NCBI RefSeq assembly: GCF_002750855.1
Contig: NZ_NWUC01000011.1
Location: forward strand, 1 to 64,000
Direction of reading: 5' to 3'
Length of the DNA: 64,000 bases
Origin: Neopararhizobium haloflavum
Lineage (GTDB): Bacteria; Pseudomonadota; Alphaproteobacteria; Rhizobiales; Rhizobiaceae
This document shows, in pieces, positions 34,940-60,183 of the stretch (positions within the stretch are counted from its first letter, which is position 1; the number at the start of each line of letters is the position of its first letter). The position numbers and the translations under genes are program-made. The notes beneath the pieces are model-generated. The model saw only the letters and a list, made by a program, of their open reading frames with translations, searched no databases and was not told where the DNA came from.

Positions 34940-34942
34940 TCC

Positions 34943-37218: not shown

Positions 37219-37243
37219 TCATAATATGAAATGGCGTTCCATT
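37219..37243. promoter_or_regulatory. Two palindromes at the iclR start, probable operator
   Basis: Two adjacent inverted repeats lie just before the IclR reading frame: tcataatatga (37219-37229, 5+1+5) and aatggcgttccatt (37230-37243, 5+4+5). IclR proteins bind short palindromes and usually repress their own genes. If translation starts at GTG 37258 the repeats fall in the promoter/leader. If at ATG 37231 the second overlaps the start codon. Confidence 0.5.
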
Positions 37244-37257
37244 ATATAGGACATGTT

Positions 37258-38034
37258 GTGGATCTGACACTTCTCAAAGGATTGCGCGTGCTCGACCACC
37301 TCGCTCGAAACAATGAGCCGCTAGGGGTATCGGATCTTGCACGCGAACTCGGTCTCACCAAAAGCAACGCGCACCGAACTCTGCAAACCCTCGCCGACGC
37401 TGGTTACATCTCGAGGGTTGATCAACGAGGGCGCTACGCTTGCACATTGAAGCTTTTCGAACTTGGAAGTGCGGTCGTGGCGCGCACTGACATTCGCCAG
37501 ATCGCCGATCCGACGATGCAGGCACTGGCTTCCGCGACTAAAGAGACGATTCACCTTTCGGCGCTCGATGGCCGCGACGTCGTCTACATTCACAAGATTG
37601 AAAGTCCACAGCCCGTCCGCGCTTACTCCTCGATAGGTGGACGCGCGCCGGCACACTGTGTTGCATCCGGCAAGGCACTGCTCGCCTTCACGCGAGGGTC
37701 GCTCGAATTGTTCAGCGATCCGCTTCCCACATTTTCTCCGCGCTCTCTGGCTAGCGTCGATGCCCTTGCAAAGGAACTCGAGACGATCCGCCAGAGCGGC
37801 GTGGCGATCAACTGGGGGGAATGGCGGGAGGCCGTGCGCGGCATCGCTGCCCCGATATTCGACGCAACCGGAACCATCAGCGGCTCGATCGGTATATCCG
37901 GCCCAGCCGAACGCTTCAGTGAAACGGCGATCGTCGAGTTCATTCCGGACGTCGTTGAAGCCGCGCGGGCTATCTCTGGTGCGCTCGGCCACAACGTCGC
38001 GCGAGCGTCAGCAGCAACACCGAGGGAGAATTGA
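37258..38034 (+). CDS. IclR family transcriptional regulator
   Basis: This is a ligand-responsive DNA-binding regulator, 258 residues. The winged helix-turn-helix is at about 5-60 (LKGLRVLDHLARN, VSDLARELGLTKSNAHRTLQTL), followed by the IclR effector domain with VASGKALLAF and IAAPIFDATGTISGSIGISGP. GTG 37258 is preferred over ATG 37231 because AGGA lies 7 bases before it and the upstream nine codons contain an operator-like palindrome. The stop is directly adjacent to the CoA-transferase start (TGA ATG), so the regulator is co-transcribed with the catabolic genes and probably senses their substrate or a CoA ester. Confidence 0.9.
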   Translation: MDLTLLKGLRVLDHLARNNEPLGVSDLARELGLTKSNAHRTLQTLADAGYISRVDQRGRYACTLKLFELGSAVVARTDIRQIADPTMQALASATKETIHLSALDGRDVVYIHKIESPQPVRAYSSIGGRAPAHCVASGKALLAFTRGSLELFSDPLPTFSPRSLASVDALAKELETIRQSGVAINWGEWREAVRGIAAPIFDATGTISGSIGISGPAERFSETAIVEFIPDVVEAARAISGALGHNVARASAATPREN

Positions 38035-39192
38035 ATGCAATCCATGCGAGGCGTAAAGGTCATCGAATTCTGTAATGTAGCGGCTGGTCCTTTTGCCGGC
38101 ATGCTCCTTGCTGATTTCGGCGCCGACGTGGTCAAGGTCGAGCGTCCTGATGGCGGCGACAGTCTGCGTTCATGGCCGCCGCTGACCGAAGGCTTTAGTG
38201 AGAATTTCGCGTCGCTGAACCGCAACAAGCGTTCCGTCGCGCTCGACATGAAGCAACCACAGGATCTAGAACGCGCGCGCCAGCTTGTCCTCGAAGCCGA
38301 TGTCGTCCTTGAAAACAACCGACCGGGTGTCATGAACCGACTCGGGCTCGGCTACGAATGGTGCCGCGAGAACAAGCCAGAGATCGTCTATTGCTCGATC
38401 TCGGCTTTCGGACAGGACGGTCCGCGCGCGCCGGAGGGCGGCTTTGACCTGACGCTTCAGGCCATCAGCGGTATAATGGGCGTCACGGGAGAGAACGACA
38501 GCGCGCCGGTCAAGTGCGGTGTTCCTCTGACTGACTTCTCGACTGGTCTTTATGCCGCCATGTCCGTGATTGCAGCACTGCGTCAGGCCGAGAAGACTGG
38601 CGAGGGCACGCATATCGACGTCTCTATGCTGGGGTCGGCGCTGGCGATCGCCGCATTGCAGACAAGCGAGTATTTCGGCAGCGGCAGGGATCCGCGCAAG
38701 CTGGGCTCCGCGCACCCTCGCAATGCGCCTTACCAAGCCTTCCAAGCGAGAGATGGCCATTTTGCGATGGCCGCCGGCAACGACAGCTTGTGGCGCGCGG
38801 TCTGTCGCGCGCTCGACCGGCCCGAACTGGCCGAGGATGCGCGCTTCGCCTCGACATCGCTGCGGGCGCATAACCAGAGCGAACTGAAGGCGCTTCTGGA
38901 AGAGCAGTTTTTCGGAAAGACCTGCGCCGAACTCCTGACGCTCTTCCGCGACGCTGGCGTCCCCTGCGCACCGATCAACACCTATTCGCAAGCGCTCGAC
39001 GACGAGCAGGTGAAGCATATGGGGTGGATTCGCGACATCACCCTGCCCGGCGGCGCTTCGGCGCGTACATTCGGATCACCGTTGCGATTTTCCGGCGATG
39101 CGCCGGCGATCTATCGCGATCCGCCGGCACTCGGTGAGCACAATGACGAGATTTTCGCGCAATTGCGCGATCCGACAAGGGCGGTGTCGTGA
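38035..39192 (+). CDS. Family III CoA-transferase (CaiB/BaiF)
   Basis: This enzyme moves CoA between two carboxylic acids through aspartyl-CoA anhydride chemistry. The 385 residues open with MRGVKVIEFCNVAAGPFAG, and the catalytic aspartate is Asp138 in GGFDLTLQAISGIMG. The conserved SLNRNKRSVALDM segment is present. It is the first structural gene after the IclR regulator and overlaps the crotonase-fold gene by 4 bases. It probably activates the imported acid using another acyl-CoA as donor; the two acids are unknown. Confidence 0.92.
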   Translation: MQSMRGVKVIEFCNVAAGPFAGMLLADFGADVVKVERPDGGDSLRSWPPLTEGFSENFASLNRNKRSVALDMKQPQDLERARQLVLEADVVLENNRPGVMNRLGLGYEWCRENKPEIVYCSISAFGQDGPRAPEGGFDLTLQAISGIMGVTGENDSAPVKCGVPLTDFSTGLYAAMSVIAALRQAEKTGEGTHIDVSMLGSALAIAALQTSEYFGSGRDPRKLGSAHPRNAPYQAFQARDGHFAMAAGNDSLWRAVCRALDRPELAEDARFASTSLRAHNQSELKALLEEQFFGKTCAELLTLFRDAGVPCAPINTYSQALDDEQVKHMGWIRDITLPGGASARTFGSPLRFSGDAPAIYRDPPALGEHNDEIFAQLRDPTRAVS

Positions 39193-39911
39193 GCGTTCTC
39201 GCGACAGAACGCTCCGACGGCGTTTGCCTGCTGACATTGCAGAGGCCAGAGAAGATGAACGCGCTCTCCGCAGAGCTGGTCGATCGTCTCTTGCAGGAAG
39301 TCCTGCTTTCGCAAGCTGACGGCACGCGGCTGCTCGTGTTGCGCGGCGAGGGTCGCAATTTCAGCGCCGGCTTCGATTTCTCAGACTTCGAGAACGAAAG
39401 CGAGGCGAGCCTTCTCCTGCGCTTCGTTCGAATCGAGGAACTGCTGCAGGCCGTTCACCATGCGCCGTTCGATACGCTGGCGCTGGCGCATGGGCCGACG
39501 ATGGGCGCGGGCGCGGATCTTGTTTGCGCCTGCGCGCGCCGGATCGCGGCACCCGGAGCGAAATTCCGCATGCCGGGCCTCAAATTCGGCCTCGTTCTCG
39601 GCACCCGCCGGCTCGCCGCGCGTGTCGGCGGCGACGCGGCGCGCGACGTACTCGGCGCGACGCGCACTTTCGATGCGCCGAAGGCTCTTGCTTCGGGCTT
39701 CATAACCGGCCTTGCGCCGCAAGATGAGTGGTGCGGCCTGATCGAGGTCGCGGCAAAGGAAGCTGCAGCACTTGAACCTCGAACATCCGCGACACTTTTT
39801 TCACGCGTCACGCCCGATACGCGCGATGCCGACATGGCCGACCTCGTCCGTTCAGCCGCGTTTCCCGGCATCAAGACGCGGCTCAAAGCCTATTTCGAAA
39901 CGCTGAGATGA
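39189..39911 (+). CDS. Crotonase-fold protein, atypical active site
   Basis: The 240-residue product of the enoyl-CoA hydratase/isomerase superfamily starts at GTG 39189 (overlap ATGA-type with the CoA-transferase). The oxyanion-hole segments are present: NFSAGFDFSD (57-66) and HGPTMGAGADLVCACA (101-116). The two catalytic glutamates of hydratases (Glu144 and Glu164 in rat crotonase) are not: by eye their positions are Gly134 and Asp153, and the PGxGG loop between them is deleted. Hydration is therefore doubtful; crotonase-fold hydrolase, ring-opening or decarboxylase chemistry is likelier (inference). Confidence 0.85.
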   Translation: MSVLATERSDGVCLLTLQRPEKMNALSAELVDRLLQEVLLSQADGTRLLVLRGEGRNFSAGFDFSDFENESEASLLLRFVRIEELLQAVHHAPFDTLALAHGPTMGAGADLVCACARRIAAPGAKFRMPGLKFGLVLGTRRLAARVGGDAARDVLGATRTFDAPKALASGFITGLAPQDEWCGLIEVAAKEAAALEPRTSATLFSRVTPDTRDADMADLVRSAAFPGIKTRLKAYFETLR

Positions 39912-40771
39912 GGAGTCCACCCGTGCAGCCCCAACCCGGCAGTCGCGACGCCCCCGGCGACAAGATCAAGTCACTGGCAGAACTGGCCTCCATGATCCCC
40001 GATGGAAGCTCCGTCGCACTTGGCGGCAGCTTTCTGCATCGCGGACCGTTCGCGCTCGTGCGCGAACTGATCCGCCAGGGTCGGCGCGATCTGGAATTGA
40101 TCAAGCAATCGCCGGGCTACGATATCGACATTCTGTGCCGCGCCGGAGCGTTGCGCCGCACGCGTGCCGGGATCGTCGCCATGGAAGGAAATTTCGGCCT
40201 GGCGCGCTGGTACAGAAAAGCCGTCGAAGAGAAGGAGATCGAGCTGGAGGAACACGCCTGCGCGAGCCTGACCGCCGGCCTGCGCGCTGCCGCCTTCGGC
40301 GTTCCGTTCCAACCCTGCGGCGGCCTTCACGGATCGGCACTCCCCGAGCTCAATGGTTGGAAATGGGGCGAAGACCCTTACGGCTCCGGCGAGAAGGTAT
40401 GCCTCATACCGCCGATCACGCCGGATTTCACCGTCATCCATGCAAACGCGGTCAGCGAGCTCGGCGACGTGCGCGTCCTCGGCACCTTCCACTGGGACCG
40501 GATCATGTCACGCGCCGCGCGGCGCGTGCTGGTGATCGCCGAGAAACTGTTGCCAATCGAGGAATTCCGCAAACAACCAGAATTGACACTGGTGCCGCAT
40601 TTCATGGTCGAGGCCGTCTCCGTGGTTCCCGGCGGCGCTTGGCCGGGCTCGTGCTGGCCGCTTTACGAGATCGACTACCCGGCCGTGCGCGCCTATGTCG
40701 ACGAGCGCGACCGCGATCTCTCCCGCCACCTCGAGGCGGCCGTCGAGAGAGAGGCACGCGCAGATGCCTGA
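39908..40771 (+). CDS. Class I CoA-transferase-like subunit A (IpdA-like)
   Basis: This alpha subunit of a heteromeric class I CoA-transferase-fold enzyme has 287 residues. DGSSVALGGSFLHRGPFALVRELI matches the glycine-rich start of the family, and LTLVPHFMVEAVSVVPGGAWP the C-terminal part. Its size and general pattern suit glutaconate CoA-transferase A or IpdA, the steroid ring-opening hydrolase subunit. The gene order crotonase, A, B matches echA20-ipdA-ipdB of actinobacteria (from memory). It overlaps the B subunit by 8 bases, so the pair is made together. Confidence 0.85.
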   Translation: MRSPPVQPQPGSRDAPGDKIKSLAELASMIPDGSSVALGGSFLHRGPFALVRELIRQGRRDLELIKQSPGYDIDILCRAGALRRTRAGIVAMEGNFGLARWYRKAVEEKEIELEEHACASLTAGLRAAAFGVPFQPCGGLHGSALPELNGWKWGEDPYGSGEKVCLIPPITPDFTVIHANAVSELGDVRVLGTFHWDRIMSRAARRVLVIAEKLLPIEEFRKQPELTLVPHFMVEAVSVVPGGAWPGSCWPLYEIDYPAVRAYVDERDRDLSRHLEAAVEREARADA

Positions 40772-41498
40772 GACCTGGAGCGGCTTTTCGTATATTGTCA
40801 CCAATCTCGCGCGGTTCATCCGACCGAACGAGGTCACCTTCAGCGGCGTCAATTCCAGCATGCCCATGCTGGCATGCATGCTCGCCAAGAAGAGCTACGA
40901 CTTCTATTTCACCTATATCAACGTAGCGGGCGGGGTCGATCCAAAGCCGACCAGCGTTCCGCTCTCCAGTTCCGACCCAGTGCTTGCCGCGGGCTCGACC
41001 GCGATCTTCGCGAATGAGGATTTCTACGACCTGTGCACTCGTGGCCGGATGGACCTCTGCTTTCTCGGCGCCGCGCAGATCGACGGGGCCGGGCAAACCA
41101 ACGTCTCCGCGATCGGCGATTGGCACAACCCGAAAGTCCGGCTGCCCGGCGGTGGCGGCGGCGCCGTCATGCTGCCCACCGCCCGGCGCTCTTGCACCTG
41201 GCGCACGGAGCATTCGCCACGGGTCCTCGTCGACAGACTGGACTTCGTCACGGCCTCGGGCGGCATGCACGGCGTCGTCACGCCGATCGCCGTCTTCATC
41301 AAGCGCGAGGGCCGTCTCACTCTGCAGTCCTGGCATCCGGAGAAGTCGCTCGACGAGGTCATCGCACGCACGGGATTCGCCATCGACGGCACCGATGCAT
41401 CACCGACGCCGGGACCAACGGACGAGGAGCGTGCGGCACTGCAGGCGCTCGACCCCGACGGCGAGTTCGAGAGGGACGCGGATGTATCTCTGGGCTGA
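40764..41498 (+). CDS. Class I CoA-transferase-like subunit B, catalytic Glu absent
   Basis: This beta subunit has 244 residues and partners the preceding gene. GAAQIDGAGQTNVSAIGDW and the glycine run LPGGGGGA are typical of family subunit B. In true CoA-transferases the beta subunit carries the catalytic glutamate (Glu54 in glutaconate CoA-transferase); here the matching segment reads TYINVAGGVDPKP, with Asn53. This argues for a non-transferase activity such as the IpdAB-type retro-Claisen hydrolysis. ATG 40764 is chosen from the overlap with subunit A. The stop overlaps the ligase start by 17 bases. Confidence 0.85.
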   Translation: MPETWSGFSYIVTNLARFIRPNEVTFSGVNSSMPMLACMLAKKSYDFYFTYINVAGGVDPKPTSVPLSSSDPVLAAGSTAIFANEDFYDLCTRGRMDLCFLGAAQIDGAGQTNVSAIGDWHNPKVRLPGGGGGAVMLPTARRSCTWRTEHSPRVLVDRLDFVTASGGMHGVVTPIAVFIKREGRLTLQSWHPEKSLDEVIARTGFAIDGTDASPTPGPTDEERAALQALDPDGEFERDADVSLG

Positions 41499-42993: not shown

Positions 42994-43002
42994 CACCGCA
43001 AT

Positions 43003-43027
43003 TCCGTCGACGAGCCACGTCGACGGA
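43003..43027 (+). promoter_or_regulatory. Hairpin between the ligase and transporter genes
   Basis: A perfect 10-base stem (43003-43012 with 43018-43027) with a 5-base loop lies between the ligase stop and the TAXI binding-protein gene. There is no T-run. It is likely an mRNA processing or stabilising element that lets the binding protein be expressed at a different level from the upstream enzymes. Confidence 0.5.
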
Positions 43028-43104
43028 GCCGCCCGTCGCCGATTGAGGAGTCCACGCGAGGGGCAAGACTGTGTGAACGACGTTCAGGAATGGGAGGAAT
43101 AACC

Positions 43105-44127
43105 TTGAACATCTCGAAGACCTTGAAATGCGCCGCCTTCTCGACGGCGCTCGTCCTGGCCGGTTGGCAGCCTGCCGCCGCGCAGGAGGAGCAGAACTAC
43201 CTGCTCGGCACGGCCTCGACCGGCGGCACGTTCTATGCCGTCGGCGTTGCGCTTGCGACACTCGTTAAGATCAAGCTGCAGCCAGAGCATAACATCGGAA
43301 TGTCGGCGATCAGTTCCGCCGGCTCTGGCGAGAACATTGCCTTGATGCGCGACGGTCAGGCGCAATTTTCCATTCTCCAAGGTCTATTCGGCGCCTATGC
43401 AGCGCGGGGGACAGGCGACCTTGAAGAACAGGGCGTACAGGAAAACCTGCGATCCATCGCCTCGCTTTGGCCGAATGTCGAACACTTCATGATACCCGCC
43501 AACCTCGCCGAAACGGGTACGATGGACGACGTTGGCGCAGTCACGGGCGAAGGCGCGGCGCTTGGCGCACGCAATTCTGGCGCGCTCGGCTCCAACGAGA
43601 CCATCCTGCGCAATCTCGGCTACGAGCCGGAAAGCGACTTCTCCTTGCAGTATGGCGGGTTCAATCCCGCCGTCGAGGCGCTACAGAACGGCCAGGTCAT
43701 GCTCGCTTCCACGCCGGGCGGCGCGCCCGTCTCGGCTGTGACCCAGGCTTATGCCACGATGGGCGCCGACAACGTCGCCGTTCTCAATTTCACCGATGAA
43801 CAGATGCAGGAAGCCAACGGTGATCTCGACCTGTGGACACGATACGTCGTGCCTGCCGAGACCTATCCGGGGCAGAGTGAGGATATCAACACGATCGCCC
43901 AGCCGAACCTTCTCGCTGTCAATTCCGACGTGCCGGAAGAAACGGTCTACCTCATTACCAAAGCAATATACGAAAACCTCGCCTTCCTGCAGAGCATCCA
44001 TCCGGCGACAAACGAGATGACGATCGACAATGCGCTAGCGGGGCTGCCGTTACCGCTCCACCCCGGCGCGCTTCGCTATTTCGAGGAAGTGGGCGCGGAG
44101 ATTCCCGATCGGCTGCGTCCTGAATGA
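43105..44127 (+). CDS. TAXI-family TRAP transporter substrate-binding protein
   Basis: This is the periplasmic receptor of a TAXI-TRAP uptake system, 340 residues. Signal peptide residues 1-26 end PAAAQ. The TAXI hallmark is visible in LLGTASTGGTFYAVGVALA, with NIGMSAISSAGSGENIALMRDGQAQF after it. Start choice: TTG 43105 has GGGAGG 7-8 bases upstream, whereas ATG 43090 overlaps that sequence and adds five residues before a normal signal peptide. TAXI proteins bind small carboxylates; the ligand here is unknown. Confidence 0.92.
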   Translation: MNISKTLKCAAFSTALVLAGWQPAAAQEEQNYLLGTASTGGTFYAVGVALATLVKIKLQPEHNIGMSAISSAGSGENIALMRDGQAQFSILQGLFGAYAARGTGDLEEQGVQENLRSIASLWPNVEHFMIPANLAETGTMDDVGAVTGEGAALGARNSGALGSNETILRNLGYEPESDFSLQYGGFNPAVEALQNGQVMLASTPGGAPVSAVTQAYATMGADNVAVLNFTDEQMQEANGDLDLWTRYVVPAETYPGQSEDINTIAQPNLLAVNSDVPEETVYLITKAIYENLAFLQSIHPATNEMTIDNALAGLPLPLHPGALRYFEEVGAEIPDRLRPE

Positions 44128-44174
44128 GGCATTGCCTCATCGCGACCGCGTACCGGGCCGGCTGGCCGGCCCGG
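44124..44174 (+). promoter_or_regulatory. Double hairpin between binding protein and permease genes
   Basis: There are two stems. The first is 8+1+8 and overlaps the stop codon (44124-44131 with 44133-44140). The second is a perfect 9-base GC stem with a 4-base loop (44153-44161 with 44166-44174). Neither has a T-run. Such elements commonly protect the 3' end of binding-protein mRNA so that it exceeds the permease message. Confidence 0.5.
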
Positions 44175-44240
44175 CGCTCCGTTCAAGGGGGCCGCGCTGA
44201 TCCTTGACGACAGGCAAGCGAAAATCGGTGGAGACGGATC

Positions 44241-46415
44241 ATGACGGCCAACGGCCAGCAGACTGCAATGCTCAAGACAACCGAGGATGCACGCCCAGAA
44301 AACCTTGGCGTGGATATCGGCGAGACGGAGGTGCATTTGCGGCGCTTCAAGGGTCCCGTGGCCAACATGATGACACTGCTCGCCGTGGCGATCTCATGCT
44401 TTCACATCTATGCAAACCTCATCGGAATAGGCTCTGACCAGTGGCTGATTGCGATGCACTTCGCCGGGCTCGCACTCCTGTGTTCACTTGGAACGCCGGC
44501 TTCCGACAGTCGATGGGCGGCATCGAAGCCGGCGCTATTCATTGATCTCGCGCTCGGTCTCATCGTCTTCGCGGCGACCGTCTTCATTATCGCATCGGAA
44601 ACAGCCATCTATCGTCAGGGGGTGCGCTTGTCTCCGGAACATTGGGTCGCAGCAGCAATCGTCGTTTTCGGAGCCATCGAGCTCACGCGCCGCACTACAG
44701 GAATCATCATACCGATCATCATCCTGGTCGCGCTGGCCTATGCCTCGCCGCTCGGCCAGTATGTCCCCGGCGTTCTCAAATTCACCGGTCTTTCCGTCGA
44801 GACGATTACGTTCCGTTCCATCTTCGCCGATGACGGCATGTTCGGAACGATCGGCCGCATCTCCGCGACCTATGTTTTCATGTTCATCTTGTTCGGCGCC
44901 TTCTTGGTGCGCTCGGGGGCCGGCAACTTCATCATATCGATCGCCCGCCTGACCGCCGGGCGTTTTGTGGGAGGTCCAGGCTTCGTCGCTGTCATGGCAT
45001 CGGGGCTAACAGGCACCGTTTCTGGATCGGCGGTAGCGAATACCGTTTCGACCGGTGTCATCACCATTCCGCTAATGAAGCGCTCCGGTTTCCCCCCGCG
45101 CTTTGCCGCGGCAACGGAGGCGGCGGCGTCCACAGGCGGCCAGCTTATGCCACCGATCATGGGCGCGGGGGCCTTCGTCATGGCTTCCAACACCCAGATT
45201 CCCTATCTCGACATCGTCGCCGTCAGCTTCCTGCCCGCCGTCGTCTATTTTCTGTCGGTCGCCTTCTTCGTTCGCATCACGGCCAAGAAGGAAGGCCTGA
45301 CCAGTATTGACGAGGACGACGAATCCCCTCTCGACGCGCTGAAGAACGGCGGACCGTCCTTCGTTATTCCAATTGTCGTCCTAATCGGCCTGCTCGTCAG
45401 CGGCTTCACGCCGGTCTACGCAGCCGGATGGGCCATCCTGTCGGTTGTCGTCGCTTCCTGGATGACGCCGAACCGCATGGGCCCGCGCGCGATCTTCGAA
45501 GCGCTGGCGCTCGGCGCACGCAACATGGTGATGACCGGGGTGCTCCTCGTCACCATCGGCCTTCTCGTCAACGTCATTTCCATGACCGGCATCGGCAATA
45601 CATTCTCCCTGGTCATATCCGATTGGGCCGGCGGCAGCCTGCTGATCTCGATGATCCTGATCGCCATCGCCTCCCTGGTCCTCGGCATGGGTCTTCCGGT
45701 GACTGCCGCCTATATTGTTCTGGCGACGCTCTCGGCGCCGGCGCTCCAGGCGCTGATCCAGAATTCTTTCCTGATCGATGCGATGGTCGCCGGCACTTTG
45801 CCGGAGGCGGCGCGTGCGCCGTTCATGCTGGCATCGCCGGAAGCAGCCCTGCAACTCGCCGAGCCAATGTCGCGCGGCGCCGCGTCAGCGTTGTTGGCGG
45901 CTACGCCGCCGGAGGCGCTGGCGCTCATCTACCCGCAGGCGCTCGATGCGAGCCTCGTGACAGCAGCCCTCTTGTCGGCGCACATGGTCATCTTCTGGCT
46001 CAGCCAGGACTCCAATGTGACGCCTCCGGTTTGCCTAACGGCTTTCGCCGCCGCGGCCATCGCAAAGACGCCCCCGATGGCAACGGGCTTCACCGCATGG
46101 AAGCTTTCCAAGGGGCTCTATCTCATGCCCCTGCTGTTCGCATACACGCCCTTTCTCTACGGCACGCCGCTGGAAATGGTCACCATCTTTCTCATCGCCG
46201 TCATCGGCGTCTACGCGCTTGGGGCGGCGATGGAGGGGCATATGGAAGCGCCGCTGACCTGGCCGGAGCGGGCGCTGACCGGCGCAGCCGGCGTGGCTTT
46301 GATGTGGCCTCAAACTCCGCTTCTGGAGATAGCGGGCGGCCTCGTCCTCTTGGTGATCTTGGTGCTCAATGTTCGGCGCGACCGGGCCGTTTCGATCCCG
46401 GCAACCGCCCATTGA
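44241..46415 (+). CDS. TRAP transporter fused permease (TAXI type)
   Basis: This 724-residue inner-membrane protein joins the small (4-helix) and large (12-helix) TRAP membrane subunits in one chain, as is normal for TAXI systems. Helices start near residue 38 after a charged head. DctM-type signature stretches include SGLTGTVSGSAVANTVSTG, EAAASTGGQLMPPIMGAGAF and TPPVCLTAFAAAAIAKTPP. It uses the sodium gradient to import the ligand captured by the upstream protein. It is the last gene of the plus-strand operon; its stop lies 17 bases from the stop of the convergent larB. Confidence 0.94.
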   Translation: MTANGQQTAMLKTTEDARPENLGVDIGETEVHLRRFKGPVANMMTLLAVAISCFHIYANLIGIGSDQWLIAMHFAGLALLCSLGTPASDSRWAASKPALFIDLALGLIVFAATVFIIASETAIYRQGVRLSPEHWVAAAIVVFGAIELTRRTTGIIIPIIILVALAYASPLGQYVPGVLKFTGLSVETITFRSIFADDGMFGTIGRISATYVFMFILFGAFLVRSGAGNFIISIARLTAGRFVGGPGFVAVMASGLTGTVSGSAVANTVSTGVITIPLMKRSGFPPRFAAATEAAASTGGQLMPPIMGAGAFVMASNTQIPYLDIVAVSFLPAVVYFLSVAFFVRITAKKEGLTSIDEDDESPLDALKNGGPSFVIPIVVLIGLLVSGFTPVYAAGWAILSVVVASWMTPNRMGPRAIFEALALGARNMVMTGVLLVTIGLLVNVISMTGIGNTFSLVISDWAGGSLLISMILIAIASLVLGMGLPVTAAYIVLATLSAPALQALIQNSFLIDAMVAGTLPEAARAPFMLASPEAALQLAEPMSRGAASALLAATPPEALALIYPQALDASLVTAALLSAHMVIFWLSQDSNVTPPVCLTAFAAAAIAKTPPMATGFTAWKLSKGLYLMPLLFAYTPFLYGTPLEMVTIFLIAVIGVYALGAAMEGHMEAPLTWPERALTGAAGVALMWPQTPLLEIAGGLVLLVILVLNVRRDRAVSIPATAH

Positions 46416-46432
46416 ACCGATAGGCTGGAGTT

Positions 46433-47098
46433 TCAACCGGCCTTGTGCGCAGCACGCATCGCGCGCAGGGCCGCGCAGGCGGCGCCATAGCCATTATCGA
46501 TATTCACGGTGACGATGCCGGGAGCGCAACTTGCAAGCGCGGAGGAGAGCGCCGCCTTGCCTCCCGCCGAAACGCCGTATCCGACCGAGGTCGGGACGGC
46601 AATGACGGCGCCCGGCACCAGTCCGCCGATGACGCTCGGCAACGCGCCCTCCATGCCGGCGGCGACGATGACCACGTCCATGGCGCTCAATTCGTCAATG
46701 CGAGCCAGCAGCCGCCACAGGCCCGCGACCCCGACATCTGTGATGCGGCGCACTGCATGTCCATAGAATTCCAGCGTGCGCGCAACTTCAGCGCCGACCG
46801 GAACATCGGAACTCCCGGCCAGGACGACCGCGACGCGCGGCGGATCGCCGATGGGCTCATGGCTCATATAGAACGCAGTGCGCGAGACCGGATCATAGTC
46901 CAGCACCTGCGTCGCCTGGGCGGCCATCGCATTCAGCTTGTCTTCATCCAGCCGGGTGAAAAGGCGCGGTGTCCTTGCATCGACAGCCATCTGCACAATG
47001 GCCTCCAACTGCTCGCCTGACTTTCCAGCCGCATAAACGGCCTCGTCGAAACCAATCCGTCGCTCCCGTTCCAGATCGAGCAGGATGTCATCTCTCAT
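46433..47098 (-). CDS. larB: Nickel-pincer cofactor biosynthesis protein LarB
   Basis: LarB carboxylates the pyridinium ring of nicotinic acid adenine dinucleotide and hydrolyses the phosphoanhydride, giving the dicarboxylated mononucleotide that is the first intermediate of the nickel-pincer (NPN) cofactor. The 221-residue product has the PurE-like domain with VVLAGSSDVPVGAEVARTLE and AAGMEGALPSVIGGLV. ATG 47098 overlaps the larE stop (ATGA); the 33 upstream in-frame codons lie inside larE and are ignored. It is the last gene of the lar operon. Confidence 0.93.
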   Translation of the reverse strand: MRDDILLDLERERRIGFDEAVYAAGKSGEQLEAIVQMAVDARTPRLFTRLDEDKLNAMAAQATQVLDYDPVSRTAFYMSHEPIGDPPRVAVVLAGSSDVPVGAEVARTLEFYGHAVRRITDVGVAGLWRLLARIDELSAMDVVIVAAGMEGALPSVIGGLVPGAVIAVPTSVGYGVSAGGKAALSSALASCAPGIVTVNIDNGYGAACAALRAMRAAHKAG

Positions 47099-47913
47099 CG
47101 TGCAATTCCCGATCCGGCTGCCGGCGCCACGAACGCACTGCCGACACGATAGCGCGCGAAGGAGACCGATTCCTCGCCGCCTTCGAAGACGTTGCACACA
47201 GCATCGCGCAACGCATCACGCATCGAGCCGCGCAGTCCGGCGAGTATCGCGTCTTCCAGCTCGATGACGATCCCTTCCCTTCGATAGCGGCACCTGACGA
47301 CCCGGGCGCCGGTCAGGTTTCGCACCGCTGTTTCGGCTTTATGGATTTGAGCCAGCAAGGGTGGCGAGATGGCGATGCCGGTTTCAACGCGGCTCGACAG
47401 GCAGGGCGATGCGGGCAGTTCCGAAAGGTCGCCCAGACCGAGCGTGCGCGCCATGGCCCTGATCGTGCTCTTGCCGATGTCGAGCTCCGCGAACGGGTGA
47501 CGCACACGCGCCAGTCGGGCCGCATCGAGCCCCGGCCGGTACTCACCAAGATCGTCCGCATTCGTCCCTGAAAGTATCCGCCCCGGCACGGCATTGGCGA
47601 TAGTGGTATAAAGCGCCTGCTTGCAGAAGAAGCAGCGGTTGACGGGATTTGAAACATATTCGCTGCGATCGAATTCCGCCGCATTGATCAGGCGGAGCTG
47701 CCAGCCTTCCTGCCGGGCCATCGCATGGACGCGCTCGGTCGCCTCGGCCGGAACGGCAGGAGAGAGTGCATGGATCATCCGTGCCTCGACCGCTTCGCAA
47801 CGACCGGCGATGGTGGCGAGGGTCAAGCTGTCGATGCCGCCGCTGACTGCGATGGCGACGGGGCCAAGTCCTTCAAGCCCGGCCTCGACGGCGGCGATAT
47901 CAACGTCACTCAT
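47095..47913 (-). CDS. larE: Sulfur transferase LarE (three-cysteine type)
   Basis: LarE adenylates the LarB product and inserts two sulfurs. The 272-residue product has the PP-loop AVSGGIDSLTLA (23-34). L. plantarum LarE donates sulfur from a single sacrificial cysteine, whereas another LarE class has three cysteines that bind a 4Fe-4S cluster. Here Cys94 and Cys97 (NRCFFCKQALY) and Cys171 (SPCLSSR) fit the cluster-binding, catalytic class. The start overlaps the larC stop by 8 bases. Confidence 0.93.
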   Translation of the reverse strand: MSDVDIAAVEAGLEGLGPVAIAVSGGIDSLTLATIAGRCEAVEARMIHALSPAVPAEATERVHAMARQEGWQLRLINAAEFDRSEYVSNPVNRCFFCKQALYTTIANAVPGRILSGTNADDLGEYRPGLDAARLARVRHPFAELDIGKSTIRAMARTLGLGDLSELPASPCLSSRVETGIAISPPLLAQIHKAETAVRNLTGARVVRCRYRREGIVIELEDAILAGLRGSMRDALRDAVCNVFEGGEESVSFARYRVGSAFVAPAAGSGIAR

Positions 47914-49180
47914 CCTCGTTCCTCCCGGCCTTGTCGAGCGCCCCCCGTTCGGCGCGGCGGCGGCGGCGCAAACGGCCTTCGGCGCCGCCAGGTAGAGCGG
48001 CGAGATCGTCCATTTCCGCCTTGACGCTCAGCGCCCCACCGGGACGCCAGGCAAGCTTGGTGCGAACGGCCTCGTCGATATCGACGAGGCTGCGCCTGCG
48101 CAGCTTACGACGCTGCAGCTCTGCGATGCGCAAGCCGAGCGTCGTTGTCTCGTCCAGCACAAGCCGGGCGGCCGCCTCGACGGCCTGCGGCTCGACGAGA
48201 ATCTGGACCTGCGTCGCCAGCCGTCCCTTCTTGCCGTAGAGCGGGAGCTGGAAGACCTCCAGCACGCCAGGAGCCAGGCGGATCGAGTCGAGCGCGACGG
48301 CGAGGTCCTCGGCCGACTGATCATCGATCTCGAACTGGATCGAGGCGATCTGGTCGGCGATCACCGGATGTCCGGTGGCGGCAAAGGCGAGGCAGCGCGT
48401 GACATTGGCAAGTCCGGGTAATTTGCGCGTACCGAAACCGCATCCAGTCGCGATCAGCATCGACGGCGCCTGGGAGGCGGAATGCCGTCCGCCAAATCGG
48501 GTTAGATATTTCAAGATGGCGGCGCCTGTGGGCGTCACCCGCTCGCCTGAAACGCCGTCGTCGATGACCTCCAGTCCTTTCAACAGCAAAGCCGTCGCGG
48601 GTGCGGGCACCGGAAGTACGCCGTGCGCGGTGCGCACCCTGCCGGCGCCGAGTGGGATCGGCGACCAAGTCCAGCGCGCCGGCTCAATGGCATCGATCAG
48701 GAAAGCGGCAGCGACGAAATCGACGATGGAATCGAGCGCACCCACCTCATGGAAGACGACATCGTCCGGCGAGACGCCGTGGACGGCTCCTTCTGCCTCG
48801 GCAAGAAGCCGGAACAATCCATGGGCATGGACGCGCGCACCGTCAGCGAGACCAGAGCTGTCAAGCCACCGGCAGATGTCGCGATAGGCGCGATGCCCAT
48901 GGCCGTGCTCGTGTTCATGTTCATGGCCATGTGCATGCCGTATCTCGGCCACATCGGTCCCATCGACCAGAAACCGCCGACCCACCAGCGCGTCGTCACG
49001 GTAGGTCACAAGCGAAACATGTACCGGATCAGGAAAGTTCAGTTCGTGCAACAGAGCGGACAGTTTCTCTGCCTTTTCAGGGAATGCGTCGCAAACCGCC
49101 GCCACAAACATGTCGCCGGCCAGTCCGCCGATCAGATCAAGGTGTATGCGGGTGGGGCTGCCATCCTCCGGCGCAGGCAT
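47906..49180 (-). CDS. larC: Nickel insertase LarC
   Basis: LarC is a CTP-dependent cyclometallase that inserts nickel into the sulfur-bearing nucleotide to finish the NPN cofactor. The 424 residues form one uninterrupted frame; in L. plantarum the gene is split by a programmed frameshift. The N-terminus IHLDLIGGLAGDMF is the family start, and a histidine-rich run at 82-96 (RHAHGHEHEHEHGHGHR) probably holds nickel. The C-terminal 25 residues are strongly basic then acidic, and variable. It lies one base from the larA stop. Confidence 0.94.
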   Translation of the reverse strand: MPAPEDGSPTRIHLDLIGGLAGDMFVAAVCDAFPEKAEKLSALLHELNFPDPVHVSLVTYRDDALVGRRFLVDGTDVAEIRHAHGHEHEHEHGHGHRAYRDICRWLDSSGLADGARVHAHGLFRLLAEAEGAVHGVSPDDVVFHEVGALDSIVDFVAAAFLIDAIEPARWTWSPIPLGAGRVRTAHGVLPVPAPATALLLKGLEVIDDGVSGERVTPTGAAILKYLTRFGGRHSASQAPSMLIATGCGFGTRKLPGLANVTRCLAFAATGHPVIADQIASIQFEIDDQSAEDLAVALDSIRLAPGVLEVFQLPLYGKKGRLATQVQILVEPQAVEAAARLVLDETTTLGLRIAELQRRKLRRRSLVDIDEAVRTKLAWRPGGALSVKAEMDDLAALPGGAEGRLRRRRRAERGALDKAGRNEDE

Positions 49181-49181
49181 G

Positions 49182-50576
49182 TCACTCCTCCACGATGAAT
49201 TTTATTCGTGGCCTACTCCAGAAGGTCGGCGCCACGACGGTTACGGGATTCTTGCCGCAATGTCTTTCCGCAATCTTCCACGCGCTCTCAAAATCGGTCG
49301 TCGGCGTGATGCCAAGGCTGCGGAACGCGCCGGGATTCGTCGTCCCGGCCATGACGACCGCACCTGCCCGGTCCAGCGTGTATTCCAGCTCGTAGAACAG
49401 CCAGAATGCATGCAGCGGCGGATAGCCGAAGCCATCATGATAGGGATGGCGGTATTGCGGACGCGCATCGAACTCGGCCTCGTGATCGACCATCTCGCGC
49501 ACGCGATGGCACCGGGCGTAGAGATCCGCCGCGTCCTGGTAGGAGGGATATCGCGCCAGGTCGATCTGGCCGCGGCTTGGCGACATCGCAATCACCACGC
49601 CGCCTTCGCGCAGCACGGGTCCTGCGGGACTGTAGCGCGGGGGAACCAGTGCGCCGACGGCGGCGATAAGCGTGTTGTCGGAACTGCCGTAGGAATACGC
49701 CGGTGGAAGGCCGACGATCAGAACGTCGGCTTGCGGCACCTTGCGTGATACCGATTTGGTTGCAAGTTCCCAGGCCGGCGCCGACACGGCCCCGGCGGAC
49801 CCGGCAAACACATTGATGAAACGGCCGCCCGTGGCTGTGACGGCGTTGACGTAGAATGTCTTCTTGCCTGTCGCCTCTTCGAGGAAAGCCGTCATCTCCT
49901 CCTTCATTCCGACTTTCTTGGCGCCGGTCTTGCGCGATTTTCGCATTGGATCGGGAATGGTATTGAAGCTGTGATGCGACGCGATCGAGCGCGTCGAAGC
50001 CAGGCCGACGATCACGCCCGTCCCGGTGAAGCCGCGCCAGGGCTGCGCCGAGACGTTGCCCTGATATATCTGCAGGTCCGCTTCCATGAAATCGCGGTTG
50101 TGTTCAACGTGACGGCCGCTTTCGGTGACACCGAAATAGATCAGCCCCTCCTGATCGGCGCAATCGTGATTGCGGATCTGACCGGAACGCCAGAACCGGT
50201 TGAAGATCGCGGGGCCGAGATGATTGGCGAGTTCGGAGCGGGTGTTCTTGCGGTGATTGCTGCAGGCATTGATCAACAGGATATCCCTGTCGGGAACGCC
50301 CGCACGGTTCAATTCGTCGACGATGATCGGCAGGATCGTGCGCGGCGGCAGGTTTGGCCGGGTGATATCATCGAAACCGATCGCCACCTTCATTCCGGGT
50401 CGGGCGAGATCTGCCAGCGGCGGACTGTCCAGCGGGTTGCGCAGCGCGGCGAGAATTGCCTCTTCCGGATTTTCGAGGAGCGGAGGGTCTTCGTATTCTA
50501 CCACCACTGCCTCGTTCGGGACGTCGATATCGATCTTCCGGTCGCCATAATCGACCGCGATGCGTTTGGTCGTCAT
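49182..50576 (-). CDS. LarA-family nickel-dependent racemase homologue
   Basis: This is a member of the lactate racemase family (DUF2088), 464 residues against 424 in L. plantarum LarA. Conserved features include FDDITRPNLPP (68-78, substrate/phosphate site), His108 in CSNHRKNT, NHD at 136-138, and His201/His202 matching His200. However, the segment that should supply His174 and the cofactor-anchoring Lys184 (GFSGGRK in LarA) reads QPWRGFTGTGVIVG (178-191), with Trp180 and Val188 instead. So it probably uses the cofactor non-covalently and acts on another 2-hydroxy acid. The operon supplies all three cofactor enzymes. Confidence 0.88.
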   Translation of the reverse strand: MTTKRIAVDYGDRKIDIDVPNEAVVVEYEDPPLLENPEEAILAALRNPLDSPPLADLARPGMKVAIGFDDITRPNLPPRTILPIIVDELNRAGVPDRDILLINACSNHRKNTRSELANHLGPAIFNRFWRSGQIRNHDCADQEGLIYFGVTESGRHVEHNRDFMEADLQIYQGNVSAQPWRGFTGTGVIVGLASTRSIASHHSFNTIPDPMRKSRKTGAKKVGMKEEMTAFLEEATGKKTFYVNAVTATGGRFINVFAGSAGAVSAPAWELATKSVSRKVPQADVLIVGLPPAYSYGSSDNTLIAAVGALVPPRYSPAGPVLREGGVVIAMSPSRGQIDLARYPSYQDAADLYARCHRVREMVDHEAEFDARPQYRHPYHDGFGYPPLHAFWLFYELEYTLDRAGAVVMAGTTNPGAFRSLGITPTTDFESAWKIAERHCGKNPVTVVAPTFWSRPRIKFIVEE

Positions 50577-50579
50577 GTC

Positions 50580-52124
50580 TCAGGCTCCTCTTCCTTCGGC
50601 GGTCGGTGGCGCGGATGTGTTGACCAGTCCGGCAAGCCGGCTGCGCATGACCTTCCCCATCGCATTGCGTGGCAGTTCTTCGACGAAATGCACGACTTCG
50701 GGCAGCTTGAACGTGCTGAGCGCGCCGCCGCAATGTTCGATCAAATCGCCGGCCTCAATCGACGGGTCGGCGACAACGAACAGGCCGACGATTTCACCCC
50801 AGATCCGGTCCGGCAGCCCAACGACAGCGGCTTCGTGCACGAGAGGGTGACGCAACACAACCGCCTCGACCTCCAGCGGCGAGATGTTCTCGCCGCCACG
50901 CACGATCATCTCTTTTGCGCGTCCCACCATCACGACATAACCGTCCTCATCCATCCGAGCCAGATCGCCGGTGCACAACCAGCCGTCGCGGAATGTCTTT
51001 TGCGTGTTGTCGGGATCGCGATAATAGCCTTTCATGACCGTTTCGCCGCGCACTTCGATCTCGCCCGTTTCGCCGGCCGGCACGCAGCGTCCCGTATCAT
51101 CGACGATCCGCACCTCCTGCGGCGGAAGCGCCTTTCCGATCGATCCGAACTTGCGCGGGCCTTCGAGCGGGTTCATCGTGGTGATTGCCGTCGTCTCGGT
51201 CAGGCCGAAGGTCTCCAGCAGCAATCCCTCGCCGAAGCGCGCCTCGAAACGGCGTGCGAGTTCCACACTGGTTGGCGCAGACGCCACCTTGATATATTTC
51301 AGCGCGATCTCGCTTGATGGCGGTGCGGTCGCTTCATGCTCCAGAAGCAGGGCCAGAATGGTCGGCGAAGCGCTGAAACTGTCTGCGCGCTCGTCACGGC
51401 ATTGTGCCCAGAGGCGGGTGGCGCTGAAACGCCTGCGCAGGATCACGGTCGCTCCGGCGGAAAGAAACGGCAATGTGCTGAACATCAATCCGTTGGTGTG
51501 AAACAGCGGCATCACACAGAGCGTGCGATCCGATGGCCCGATCCGAAAGCCGCGGCGCACATATTCGACCGCTCGCACGACGTTGCGGTGACTTAGCATC
51601 ACACCCTTGGGATCCCCCGTCGTTCCCGACGTGTAGATCAGGAGCGCTCCGTCCTCATCGTCCAGCGGCGGCTGAAGCACGAACGTGTCCGCGGAGGCAA
51701 GAACATCGCGCTCGTCCGAGCGGGCATAGGCCGGCGGCAGGTCCGCGCCAAGAACCAAGACATGCGGATGTGTCGACAAGAGTGGCATCGTCTGCTCTAT
51801 AAGCGCGGCAAATTCCCGGCCGACCACGATGACATGGCTGCCGGCATGCCCCAAAATATAAGCGAGTTCGGCAGGCGTCAGGCGGTTGTTCAACGGGTTG
51901 GCGATGAAACCAGCGCGAAAGGCGCCGATATAGCCGGCCACCAGCAAGGGATCGTTGCCCATCAGGAAGCTGACGCGGTCTCCGGCATCCAGCCCGATTG
52001 CGCGAAAATGGTTCGCAAATCGATTCGCGAGGCCGTCCAGCACCTCGTGCGAATACAACTTGTTATCCTCGAAAGCGATTGCAACGTTGTTATGGTGTGG
52101 CTGGATTAGGTCTCCGGCGAACAT
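50580..52124 (-). CDS. Acyl-CoA ligase (AMP-forming), lar operon
   Basis: This is a second island ligase, 514 residues, distinct from the one at 41482. Motifs: YTSGTTGDPKGVMLSH, DGWLCTGDLARMDEDGYV, GRAKEMIVRGGENI and the catalytic lysine in LPRNAMGKVMRSRL. It is first in the lar operon, three bases before larA, so ligase and racemase-like protein are co-translated: one stereoisomer is probably made and then activated. ATG 52124 is the start fitting the conserved N-terminal domain; a longer open frame upstream crosses the promoter and the LysR gene. Confidence 0.9.
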   Translation of the reverse strand: MFAGDLIQPHHNNVAIAFEDNKLYSHEVLDGLANRFANHFRAIGLDAGDRVSFLMGNDPLLVAGYIGAFRAGFIANPLNNRLTPAELAYILGHAGSHVIVVGREFAALIEQTMPLLSTHPHVLVLGADLPPAYARSDERDVLASADTFVLQPPLDDEDGALLIYTSGTTGDPKGVMLSHRNVVRAVEYVRRGFRIGPSDRTLCVMPLFHTNGLMFSTLPFLSAGATVILRRRFSATRLWAQCRDERADSFSASPTILALLLEHEATAPPSSEIALKYIKVASAPTSVELARRFEARFGEGLLLETFGLTETTAITTMNPLEGPRKFGSIGKALPPQEVRIVDDTGRCVPAGETGEIEVRGETVMKGYYRDPDNTQKTFRDGWLCTGDLARMDEDGYVVMVGRAKEMIVRGGENISPLEVEAVVLRHPLVHEAAVVGLPDRIWGEIVGLFVVADPSIEAGDLIEHCGGALSTFKLPEVVHFVEELPRNAMGKVMRSRLAGLVNTSAPPTAEGRGA

Positions 52125-52212
52125 GGGCGGCTCGGTCGCTGTGCAATTGTCGATACCCCATCTTACGGTCTGGCGCACGGGCGATAAAAACGATAATAAT
52201 TGAGCGAAACCA

Positions 52213-52227
52213 ATCGAAATATTCGAT
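52213..52227. promoter_or_regulatory. LysR-type operator palindrome
   Basis: The 15-base sequence atcgaaatattcgat is a perfect 6+3+6 inverted repeat and contains the classic T-N11-A LysR box. It lies 10 bases before the TTG start of the LysR gene and about 90 bases from the start of the divergent ligase-lar operon. It is probably the recognition site through which the regulator represses itself and activates the lar operon. Confidence 0.65.
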
Positions 52228-52236
52228 AGGAAAGCA

Positions 52237-53112
52237 TTGAACCTTGTGCAACTCGAAACCCTGATCGCGATTGTCGAGCAGGGCAGCTTCGCACGGGCCG
52301 GCGCAGCCCTTGGCGCTACGCAGTCAACGGTCTCCGCCCGCATCCGGGAGTTGGAGCGATTCGTCGGCGCCGAACTGTTCGATAGGAGCGGGTACCGGGT
52401 TTCGCTCACCGCTAAGGGTGAAGAAGTACTCGAATTTGCCCACCAATATGCAAGCCGCGCTAACGCGATAAGCCGTCGATATCGCGATCCTGCCAACATT
52501 ACTGATCTCGTCAGGATAGGTGTCGTCGGCATGGTCGCTCATACTTGGCTGCCTTTGATGGTCTCCGCGTTGCTGCGCCGATATCCCCGTTTGAAGCTGA
52601 GTCTGGATGTAGGTTTGACGCGCGTATTGATAGAACATTTGCGCCAGGGTCGGATCGATCACGCGATCATCGCGGGCTCTTTGGATGAACCCGGAATTGA
52701 ATCGGTTTCGATCGGAAGGGATGAGTTTGTTTGGACTGCCGCACCATCCTTTTCGCTACCAGCGGAAAGTGTCGATTTGAACGACCTCCGGGGACGGCCA
52801 ATACTTGCGCTGAGTGTCGATTCTTACCACTATCCCGTTATCGAGCGCTGGTTTCGGGAGAATGAATTGCCTTTCGAACCCGTTATTTCGTGCAACAACA
52901 TGAATGTGTTGGCTGAACTCACGGCTGCTGGCCACGGCATCAGCCTTCTTCCACGACAGTGCTATAAAAGGGAAATCGCCGAAGGTCGGCTAAGGGTATT
53001 GCCTATCGAACCGCGCTATCCAGAAGTAGATCTCTCCTTTGTGTCGCGAAGATCCTCCGATAGCGTGGTCTGCTCGGCGCTCCTTAAAGCTATCACCGAA
53101 ATCCGCAGTTGA
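52237..53112 (+). CDS. LysR family transcriptional regulator
   Basis: This is an inducer-responsive regulator of 291 residues. The N-terminal helix-turn-helix spans about 2-60 (LETLIAIVEQGSFARAGAAL, QSTVSARIRELERFVGAELF) and the C-terminal half is the substrate-binding domain. Translation starts at TTG 52237, with AGGAA five bases upstream; no ATG fits. It diverges from the lar operon and shares with it a 112-base control region holding a perfect LysR box, so it almost certainly regulates that operon. The ligand is presumably the hydroxy acid or its CoA ester (inference). Confidence 0.9.
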   Translation: MNLVQLETLIAIVEQGSFARAGAALGATQSTVSARIRELERFVGAELFDRSGYRVSLTAKGEEVLEFAHQYASRANAISRRYRDPANITDLVRIGVVGMVAHTWLPLMVSALLRRYPRLKLSLDVGLTRVLIEHLRQGRIDHAIIAGSLDEPGIESVSIGRDEFVWTAAPSFSLPAESVDLNDLRGRPILALSVDSYHYPVIERWFRENELPFEPVISCNNMNVLAELTAAGHGISLLPRQCYKREIAEGRLRVLPIEPRYPEVDLSFVSRRSSDSVVCSALLKAITEIRS

Positions 53113-59065: not shown

Positions 59066-59122
59066 GTCGGCTCCTCCCGATCGTCGGCGGTCCCGCATCA
59101 AGGTGCGAGACCACCTGACACT

Positions 59123-60124
59123 TTATTCGTCGCGCAGTTCGCGCGCCGTATCGATCATCGGCTGTGCGACTTCCTCACCGGCATCGCTCAGGAGCTTTTC
59201 TTCAAGGGCGGGCCAAACGACGTCCCGAATACGCTGGAACTCCTCAGGAGCGACATCGACGAGGTTCACCCCGTTGGCTTCCAGCTCTTCGAGCGATGCC
59301 GCCGAGGCCTCTTGAAACTCTGCCGCTGTGAACCGCTCGACCTCGTCCGCTGCAGCCTGGACAACTTCCTGCTGCTCGGGCGTCATTTCGTTCCATGTAT
59401 CGAGGTTGATCATGATGGCATACGAAAACACCGGCTGGATGAAGTTCGGCTCGGCAATCAGATTGCTGGCCACTTCGTAGAACTTTCTCGAGAAATGGCT
59501 CGTCGGGCCGGACATCGTTCCGTCGATCACACCTTTTGAGAGCGCGTCGTAGGCTTCTCCCGAAGACATCACCACGGGTGAACTGCCAACTGCCTGCAGG
59601 AACGCCGCTGCGTACTGGCCATAACCGCGAAGCTTCGTGCCCTGAAAATCCTCAAGGGTCTTGATCTCCTTTTCGGAGATCAATGCCTCTGAATCGTAGT
59701 CGGCCCAGCCAAGAAGTTTGACGTTGCCCTTTTCTTCCAGCTGCGCCGCGAGCGCAGGTGTCACGGACTCTCTCAGGGCATAGAAATAGTCGATGGAATC
59801 GTAATAGGTTGGCATGTAGAGAATGCCGGCCGACGGAACGAGTCCCATCCAGAAGTCCAATTGGTTAATGCCGACATCGACCGAACCGCTTGGCAGAACT
59901 TTGACCGAATCGGCATCGCTGTAGAGCTGACTGGCCGGAAAGACATCGACGCCGATCTCGGAGTTTTCTTCGATCTCCTGCTTGAACAGATCAAGCGCCT
60001 CGCTCATGTGGTGACCAACGGGCAGACTGCCGATCGCACGGATCTGTTCAACCTGAGCAGCGGCATTGCCACCACTCAAAGCCAGTCCGAGCGCGGCGGT
60101 TGTTGCGATCATCCATTTTTGCAT
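59123..60124 (-). CDS. TRAP transporter substrate-binding protein DctP
   Basis: This is a periplasmic receptor of 333 residues. The signal peptide is 1-24 (ending GNAAAQ). It has the DctP fold, with VFPASQLYSDADSVKVLPSG and KLRGYGQYAAAFLQAVGSSP containing the conserved arginine region that contacts the substrate carboxylate. ATG 60124 has a GAGGAG site. It is paired with the fused permease 57 bases downstream. The ligand is unknown; the operon suggests a short branched or dicarboxylic acid. Confidence 0.93.
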   Translation of the reverse strand: MQKWMIATTAALGLALSGGNAAAQVEQIRAIGSLPVGHHMSEALDLFKQEIEENSEIGVDVFPASQLYSDADSVKVLPSGSVDVGINQLDFWMGLVPSAGILYMPTYYDSIDYFYALRESVTPALAAQLEEKGNVKLLGWADYDSEALISEKEIKTLEDFQGTKLRGYGQYAAAFLQAVGSSPVVMSSGEAYDALSKGVIDGTMSGPTSHFSRKFYEVASNLIAEPNFIQPVFSYAIMINLDTWNEMTPEQQEVVQAAADEVERFTAAEFQEASAASLEELEANGVNLVDVAPEEFQRIRDVVWPALEEKLLSDAGEEVAQPMIDTARELRDE

Positions 60125-60183
60125 GCTTAGTCCTCCTCTTGGTGATTTTGCGATGACGCTTGTCATCGTCTGTTCGTGTCCGA

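Follow-up and report, generated by a model that had tools for sequence, protein, structure and literature searches.

The window, a stretch of 64,000 nucleotides of Neopararhizobium haloflavum (contig NZ_NWUC01000011.1), carries a lar operon whose larA-like gene (P0001) encodes a homologue of lactate racemase without Lys184, the lysine by which that enzyme normally tethers the nickel-pincer nucleotide (NPN). The lysine is missing from every sequence of the family to which the protein belongs, and in the subclade of the window protein the larB, larC and larE genes adjoin the larA-like gene. We consider it probable that the protein is an NPN-dependent isomerase of an imported carboxylic acid and that the usual thioamide plays no part in holding its cofactor. 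A previous reading of this DNA from its letters alone (the sequence-only reading) had noticed the altered residues and proposed a racemase or epimerase with a non-covalent cofactor; its observation is confirmed, and its interpretation is partly supported.

Active-site residues kept and lost in the window protein

The motifs listed in that reading, FDDITRP (residues 68-74), His108, the histidine pair 201/202 and QPWRGFTGTGV (178-188), are all present in the 464-residue open reading frame (ORF). Compared with LarA of Lactiplantibacillus plantarum, the protein keeps Asp72, Arg75, His108 and His200 (as Asp70, Arg73, His108 and His202), among which Arg75 and His200 are NPN ligands and Asp72 binds the ribose. 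His174, Lys184 and Lys298 are missing, with Gln178, Thr186 (or a gap) and Val307 in their places, leaving only His108 of the lactate racemase catalytic set His108/His174/Lys298. The GFSGGRK loop of LarA is shortened by two residues, which removes Lys184. Because the lysine is missing, as the sequence-only reading had held, the known thioamide cannot form at this site.

The protein was re-aligned in three MAFFT modes on ten random subsets each, giving 30 alignments, to which one profile-profile alignment was added. No register with a second histidine at the true 174 position or a lysine at the true 184 position emerged: all 30 alignments place Gln178 on His174, Thr186 on Lys184, His202 on His200 and Arg73 on Arg75 of L. 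plantarum LarA. The profile-profile alignment shifts the two-residue gap onto Arg183-Lys184 and still offers no lysine. Misalignment concealing a lysine is ruled out by these alignments. The register is further checked by the published active-site numbers of Streptococcus plurextorum LarA (PMC12611868), which land on the correct letters of 9q2u. Its Asp73, Lys76, His115, Asn185 and Lys195 correspond to Asp70, Arg73, His108, Gln178 and Thr186 of the window protein, and its His211, His306, Tyr307, His401 and Arg431 to His202, Ser295, Tyr296, His389 and Arg419. The C-terminal set of the single-histidine subfamily (His401/Tyr307/Arg431) is therefore matched by His389, Tyr296 and Arg419, and the other marks of that subfamily, Asn at 174 and the Lys195 tether, are replaced by Gln178 and Thr186.

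The window protein belongs to the LarA superfamily, with a Lar_N domain (PF09861; 4.9e-45 in Pfam) and the full-length two-domain LarA fold. Every named LarA-type model of NCBIfam scores it far under its cut-off: the top named model, LarAH14/15/16 (NF052592), gives 185.5 bits against 740, LarAH10 165.2 against 540, lactate racemase (NF033504) 142.6 against 460, and two malate racemase models 139.2 against 500 and 114.8 against 462. On five relatives, one of them a fragment, NF052592 gives 94.4-216.2 bits. The nearest solved relatives by sequence are 9q2u (2.5e-48) and 9q3j (7.1e-42), aligned over almost the full length, with malate racemase (4.1e-25) and the lactate racemases ranking behind them. 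The gene is under constraint, since its differences from the Filomicrobium gene number 65, 42 and 244 at codon positions one, two and three (463 codons).

A family of LarA homologues without the lysine

All 11 family sequences carry the motif [FY]TGTG with the same two-residue deletion and no lysine, and Lys184 is retained in all 37 other LarA homologues compared; the absence of the lysine is therefore not a matter of chance. The 37 comprise 24 canonical homologues (13 of one genus), eight proteins of a sister group, two divergent proteins (L030 and L031, not counted among the canonical 24) and three later additions. Before counting, copies and near-copies of a retained sequence were left out, as was the weak match L020 (34.1 bits), which also has a lysine at this site. 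The model did not match L033 and L034, which are unscored; L032 is truncated by a contig end and has no His108 region. Frameshift or sequencing error as the cause of the loss is ruled out by the recurrence of the same deletion in all 11 sequences.

At the His174 site, Gln occurs in three family sequences, Gly in four, Ala in one and His in three (L005, L006 and L007). The loss of His174 asserted in the sequence-only reading thus holds for the window protein (Gln178 in 30/30 alignments) but does not extend to the whole family. Since three members keep His174 yet have no lysine, the two losses are separate. Judged from the sequences compared, the lysine loss marks the whole family, and the residue at 174 varies within it.

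Relatives were sought with six short peptide patterns in genome_contigs (one genome per species, 84,980 species), a scan that may miss members. It found seven, with 46-83% identity, in Filomicrobium, Afipia, Magnetovibrio, two betaproteobacterial and two gammaproteobacterial genomes. Genome searches added L036 and L037, both of one genus, and L032, a contig-end fragment of a third type; L035, a third sequence in the genus of L036 and L037, matches the Afipia sequence L003. A maximum-likelihood tree calculated from 28 rows, rooted only at the midpoint, separates the family from all other rows by a branch with 100/100 support and groups it with the single-histidine pair at 99/97. L032 and ten near-copies were left out of this tree, which predates the examination of L066-L079, and the program flags long branches that meet, among them the branch to the family and the single-histidine group. 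The family thus stands beside the "single-histidine" LarAs of Blautia and Streptococcus, in which the lysine is retained.

The two divergent homologues, found in the two gammaproteobacterial genomes (L030, 781-2484, minus strand; L031, 1408-2850, plus strand), have Val at His108 and Asn at both Asp72 and His174; Lys184 is kept, and both catalytic histidines are gone.

The lar operon and cofactor use

The operon lies on the minus strand in the order acyl-coenzyme A (CoA) ligase, larA-like, larC, larE and larB (Table 1). Three bases separate the ligase and larA-like genes, and larC, larE and larB are joined by a one-base gap or short overlaps. The operon is complete, as the sequence-only reading had stated, with LarC, LarE and LarB all passing their NCBIfam cut-offs. 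The CFFC pair and the PASPC cysteine of LarE follow the pattern of the iron-sulfur type of this enzyme. Seven loci of alpha- and betaproteobacteria (the window, L001, L002, L003, L004, L057 and L058) make up subclade A. In all seven, larB, larC and larE adjoin the larA-like gene and a ligase homologue lies directly upstream of it, cut by the contig end in L004. In Magnetovibrio (L006), larBEC adjoin on the opposite strand.

The window's genome (completeness 100%) encodes one PF09861 protein, the window LarA homologue. A single PF09861 match is also found in five of the seven relatives' genomes, two of those five being small assemblies (2.4 and 1.7 Mb) that are possibly incomplete; the two gammaproteobacterial genomes have five and four matches, weak and partial ones included. 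With the window's genome counted, six of eight genomes yielded no LarA homologue besides the family protein. For the window's genome, the single match rules out that LarBCE really serve a second LarA homologue. NPN enzymes other than LarA homologues are not known, so LarBCE would have no other known client in the genomes with a single homologue. On this genomic association, with larBCE adjacent and one LarA homologue found, the window protein very probably uses the NPN cofactor, in line with the sequence-only reading, and the genomic evidence gives good support to NPN use without the Lys184 tether.

Table 1. Features of the lar region in the window.
Feature	Position	Strand	Evidence and remarks
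IclR regulator, CaiB CoA-transferase, enoyl-CoA hydratase-like, glutaconate-CoA-transferase-like alpha and beta: possible downstream pathway	37231..41498	plus	block beside the lar genes in Filomicrobium
TAXI-type (TRAP-associated extracytoplasmic immunogenic) solute receptor of a tripartite ATP-independent periplasmic (TRAP) transporter, probable uptake partner	43090..44127	plus	Pfam NMT1_3 5.1e-96; PDB 9ibp 3.4e-109; conserved in Filomicrobium
Fused TRAP membrane protein (DctM)	44241..46415	plus	homologues lie immediately before the larA-like genes of L005, L006, L007
larB, nicotinic acid adenine dinucleotide (NaAD) carboxylase/hydrolase	46433..47098	minus	NCBIfam NF033503 above cut-off; start at internal ATG, ORF to 47197
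larE, sulfur transferase (cysteines in CFFC and PASPC)	47095..47913	minus	NCBIfam TIGR00268 above cut-off
larC, inserts nickel into the pincer nucleotide; LarC1 and LarC2 share one frame	47906..49180	minus	NCBIfam TIGR00299, NF052512 above cut-off
larA-like gene P0001, LarA homologue without Lys184 and His174	49182..50576	minus	464 aa, ATG to stop
His389 codon (equivalent: active-site His401 of S. plurextorum LarA)	49410..49412	minus	coordinates from ORF start
Lys225 codon	49902..49904	minus	coordinates from ORF start
QPWRGFTGTGV codons, residues 178-188 (Gln178 at the His174 site; two-residue deletion; Thr186 at the Lys184 site)	50013..50045	minus	coordinates from ORF start 50576
AMP-forming acyl-CoA ligase, first operon gene (start codon unsettled)	50580..52109	minus	Pfam AMP-binding
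LysR-type regulator, divergent from the operon	52237..53112	plus	Pfam; conserved in Filomicrobium

Proposed mechanism and alternatives

In the scheme that we infer for cofactor use, the absence of any tether, the reaction, the substrate class and the order of steps, NPN would be supplied by LarB, LarE and LarC of the same operon and held by the nickel ligand His202, by Arg73 at the phosphate and by Asp70 at the ribose; the Lys184 thioamide would play no part. The substrate would be a carboxylic acid, probably a 2-hydroxy acid, imported by a TAXI-TRAP or ATP-binding cassette (ABC) system. It would be transiently oxidised, with the hydride passing to NPN and His108 acting as base, and would come back with the opposite configuration or as an isomer. 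The adjacent ligase would then convert it to a CoA ester that enters a CoA-linked breakdown pathway. In the C-terminal domain, His389 may take over the role of the absent second acid/base. This histidine occurs in all 11 family and all eight sister-group sequences, and the position is a gap in 24/24 canonical homologues; its equivalent, His401 of S. plurextorum LarA, sits beside a ligand in the published structure (PMC12611868).

Several observations weigh against this scheme. Neither L005 nor L007 shows larBCE in the flanking sequence fetched, and both genomes contain other LarA homologues. Lys298, which counts as catalytic in LarA, is absent from the sister group as well as from the window protein, so the canonical mechanism may not apply. 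In the AlphaFold model, the loop with TGTG and His202 has mostly a predicted local distance difference test (pLDDT) value below 50, and the model therefore does not establish the geometry. Groups 12, 13 and 16 of the LarA superfamily were set aside in 2020 as probable NPN non-users, their catalytic and NPN-binding residues not being conserved (PMC7583248); the conserved lar operon and the sole LarA homologue are, however, evidence against extending this conclusion to the present family.

The reaction may depart from ordinary racemization. With one histidine in the N-domain, subclade A proteins might take a single enantiomer and move the hydride one way or to the neighbouring carbon, an alternative that we find possible if rather doubtful and that is compatible with the untethered cofactor proposed above. 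Such chemistry has been proposed for LarAs without His174 (PMC7583248, PMC12611868), and the replacement of His174 by Gln, Gly or Ala in eight of 11 members agrees with it, but the three members beside a TRAP membrane gene keep His174, and His389 may substitute for it.

It is unlikely that the tether has instead been relocated, with Lys225 (or Lys110) forming the thioamide or acting as the missing acid/base and NPN perhaps remaining covalently bound. The candidates themselves are well conserved: Lys225 is invariant in 11/11 family members, is Phe in 8/8 sister-group proteins and is lysine in 0/24 canonical homologues, and Lys110, two residues past His108, is invariant in 10/10 members. The register of Lys225 on L. 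plantarum LarA is, however, unsettled, with Met224 in 23 of the 30 alignments, Ile220 in four, a gap in two and His221 in one, and its three-dimensional position is not reliable in the AlphaFold model. Despite the uncertain register, Lys225 falls close to Ile220, one of the positions in the activity logos of PMC7583248 (Fig. 3 legend).

That the protein makes no use of NPN, being a decayed LarA or binding another ligand while larBCE are relics or serve something else, would fit the joint absence of His174, Lys184 and Lys298 and the precedent of groups 12, 13 and 16, but is very unlikely given an operon that all seven alpha- and betaproteobacterial loci share, six of eight genomes in which no further LarA homologue was found, LarB, LarC and LarE above their cut-offs, a constrained protein and retained ligands of nickel, phosphate and ribose.

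Returning to the NPN-dependent isomerase without the usual thioamide, a bolder form of it deserves to be kept as a tentative idea. One LarA branch may have abandoned the covalent anchor and come to use NPN as an exchangeable coenzyme like nicotinamide adenine dinucleotide (NAD), and in subclade A the remaining histidine, together with His389 or Lys225, might carry out a new reaction, a hydride shift or a one-way isomerisation, on an acid destined for CoA activation.

Comparison with known LarA proteins

The LarAs of S. plurextorum and Blautia wexlerae (9q2u/9q3k and 9q3j; PMC12611868) have Asn at 174, Lys76, His306 and the tethering Lys195, whereas the window protein, with 27-29% identity to them, has Gln, Arg, Ser and Thr at these sites. 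Relative to the lactate racemase LarA of L. plantarum (5huq, 6c1w), which has the three residues His174, Lys184 and Lys298, its C-terminal domain is longer and the insertion holds His389; its identity to a plasmid-borne L. plantarum LarA is 22%. In the LarA of Thermoanaerobacterium thermosaccharolyticum NPN is reported as untethered (PMC11796402); in the window family the lysine is deleted.

The findings are less new than first thought, as LarAs without His174 and non-covalent NPN are already published (PMC12611868, PMC11796402, PMC9283937). Two structures of homologues without His174 have been solved, and the loaded one has NPN covalently on the lysine (PMC12611868). Non-covalent NPN is described for some LarAs (PMC11796402, PMC9283937), and the cofactor lysine has been called universally conserved (PMC11851776). 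Frankia LarAH14, numbered after the group said to have no His174, was inactive on the acids tested (PMC7583248, PMC12611868). No description of a lysine-less LarA family was found in the literature searched, which does not prove that none exists. A conserved lysine-less family with its cofactor-making genes would allow the role of the tether, the exchange of the cofactor and the need for two histidines to be tested on native enzymes instead of mutants.

Distribution

The family is rare and patchy. It occurs in one of four genomes of the window's genus and only in the window's own genome among 248 of its taxonomic family and among 398 genomes of a phylum sample, where two weaker matches keep Lys184. 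In another taxonomic family 3 of 296 genomes are positive, with 15 further, much weaker matches of which those scored keep Lys184, and another genome set gives 2 of 17. Only the centre genome is positive in sets of 250, 103 and 199 genomes. Five other genomes with weaker matches, from the 199- and 248-genome sets, have homologues of the sister type, in which Asn174 and Lys184 are present. The patchy spread together with the conserved synteny suggests that a cassette has been transferred.

A scan of viral contigs returned no relatives. Among plasmid records, 14 have a match, all below 60% identity and none over 80% of the query, and the four sequences fetched keep Lys184. A search for LarAH14/15/16 in 75 genomes gave weak matches in two and none above the cut-off; the underlying sequences keep Lys184. 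Single-histidine (Asn174) LarA relatives (L066-L070, L072) are present in genomes of Magnetovibrio's order and of the window's own taxonomic family, and genome G1124 carries two of this kind.

Gene neighbourhood and substrate class

Filomicrobium shares 13 genes with window positions 37231-53112: the IclR regulator, CaiB, the enoyl-CoA hydratase-like protein, the two glutaconate-CoA-transferase-like subunits, the TAXI receptor, the TRAP membrane protein, LysR, the ligase, the larA-like gene, larC, larE and larB. Between the two genomes the LysR-lar block is inverted as a unit, and the window has one additional ligase. In L005 and L006 the larA-like gene comes after a TAXI-type receptor and a fused TRAP membrane protein, and in L007 after the membrane protein. 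In Afipia an NMT1_2-type receptor lies between larB and larC, and at L059/L032 the fragment is followed by relatives of both CoA-transferase-like subunits. This context points to carboxylate uptake, isomerisation, CoA activation and CoA-linked breakdown, and would place a nickel enzyme in a proteobacterial cassette for the CoA-linked catabolism of an acid. The acyl-CoA ligase and the TAXI-TRAP transporter make a substrate other than lactate, as put forward in the sequence-only reading, plausible. TAXI receptors are reported for glutamate, 2-oxoglutarate, 2-hydroxyglutarate or orthophthalate (PMC12344293); for the 9ibp receptor no ligand was found in the literature searched.

In the glutaconate-CoA-transferase-like beta subunit of the window (40737-41498, plus strand), Val stands at the single position that varies (C, A, S, N or V) among the aligned 5mzw/5n00-5n03 chains. 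This is the active-site position of AibB, so the product, instead of a CoA transferase, may be a relative of the hydrolase or decarboxylase type. Beside the Magnetovibrio lar genes (L006, 12102-16430) lie genes for a biotin carrier, a biotin carboxylase, a PYC/OADA carboxyltransferase and a beta-keto acid cleavage enzyme, which offer a lead to the substrate of the members that keep His174. A small membrane protein follows larE in the Afipia-type operon of L057 (14295-14993, plus strand), with a weak NicO nickel-transporter match below cut-off (25.6/27.7 bits) and a DsbD_2 match above cut-off. Near the lar region, the window also holds a second TRAP operon (57170-63709, minus strand) with DctP, a fused DctQM, a 3-hydroxyisobutyrate-dehydrogenase-like protein, MmgE/PrpD and a CaiB CoA-transferase. 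Three ORFs at 32729-36624 (minus strand), not far from the IclR gene, resemble by eye the large, flavin adenine dinucleotide (FAD) and 2Fe-2S subunits of a molybdenum hydroxylase.
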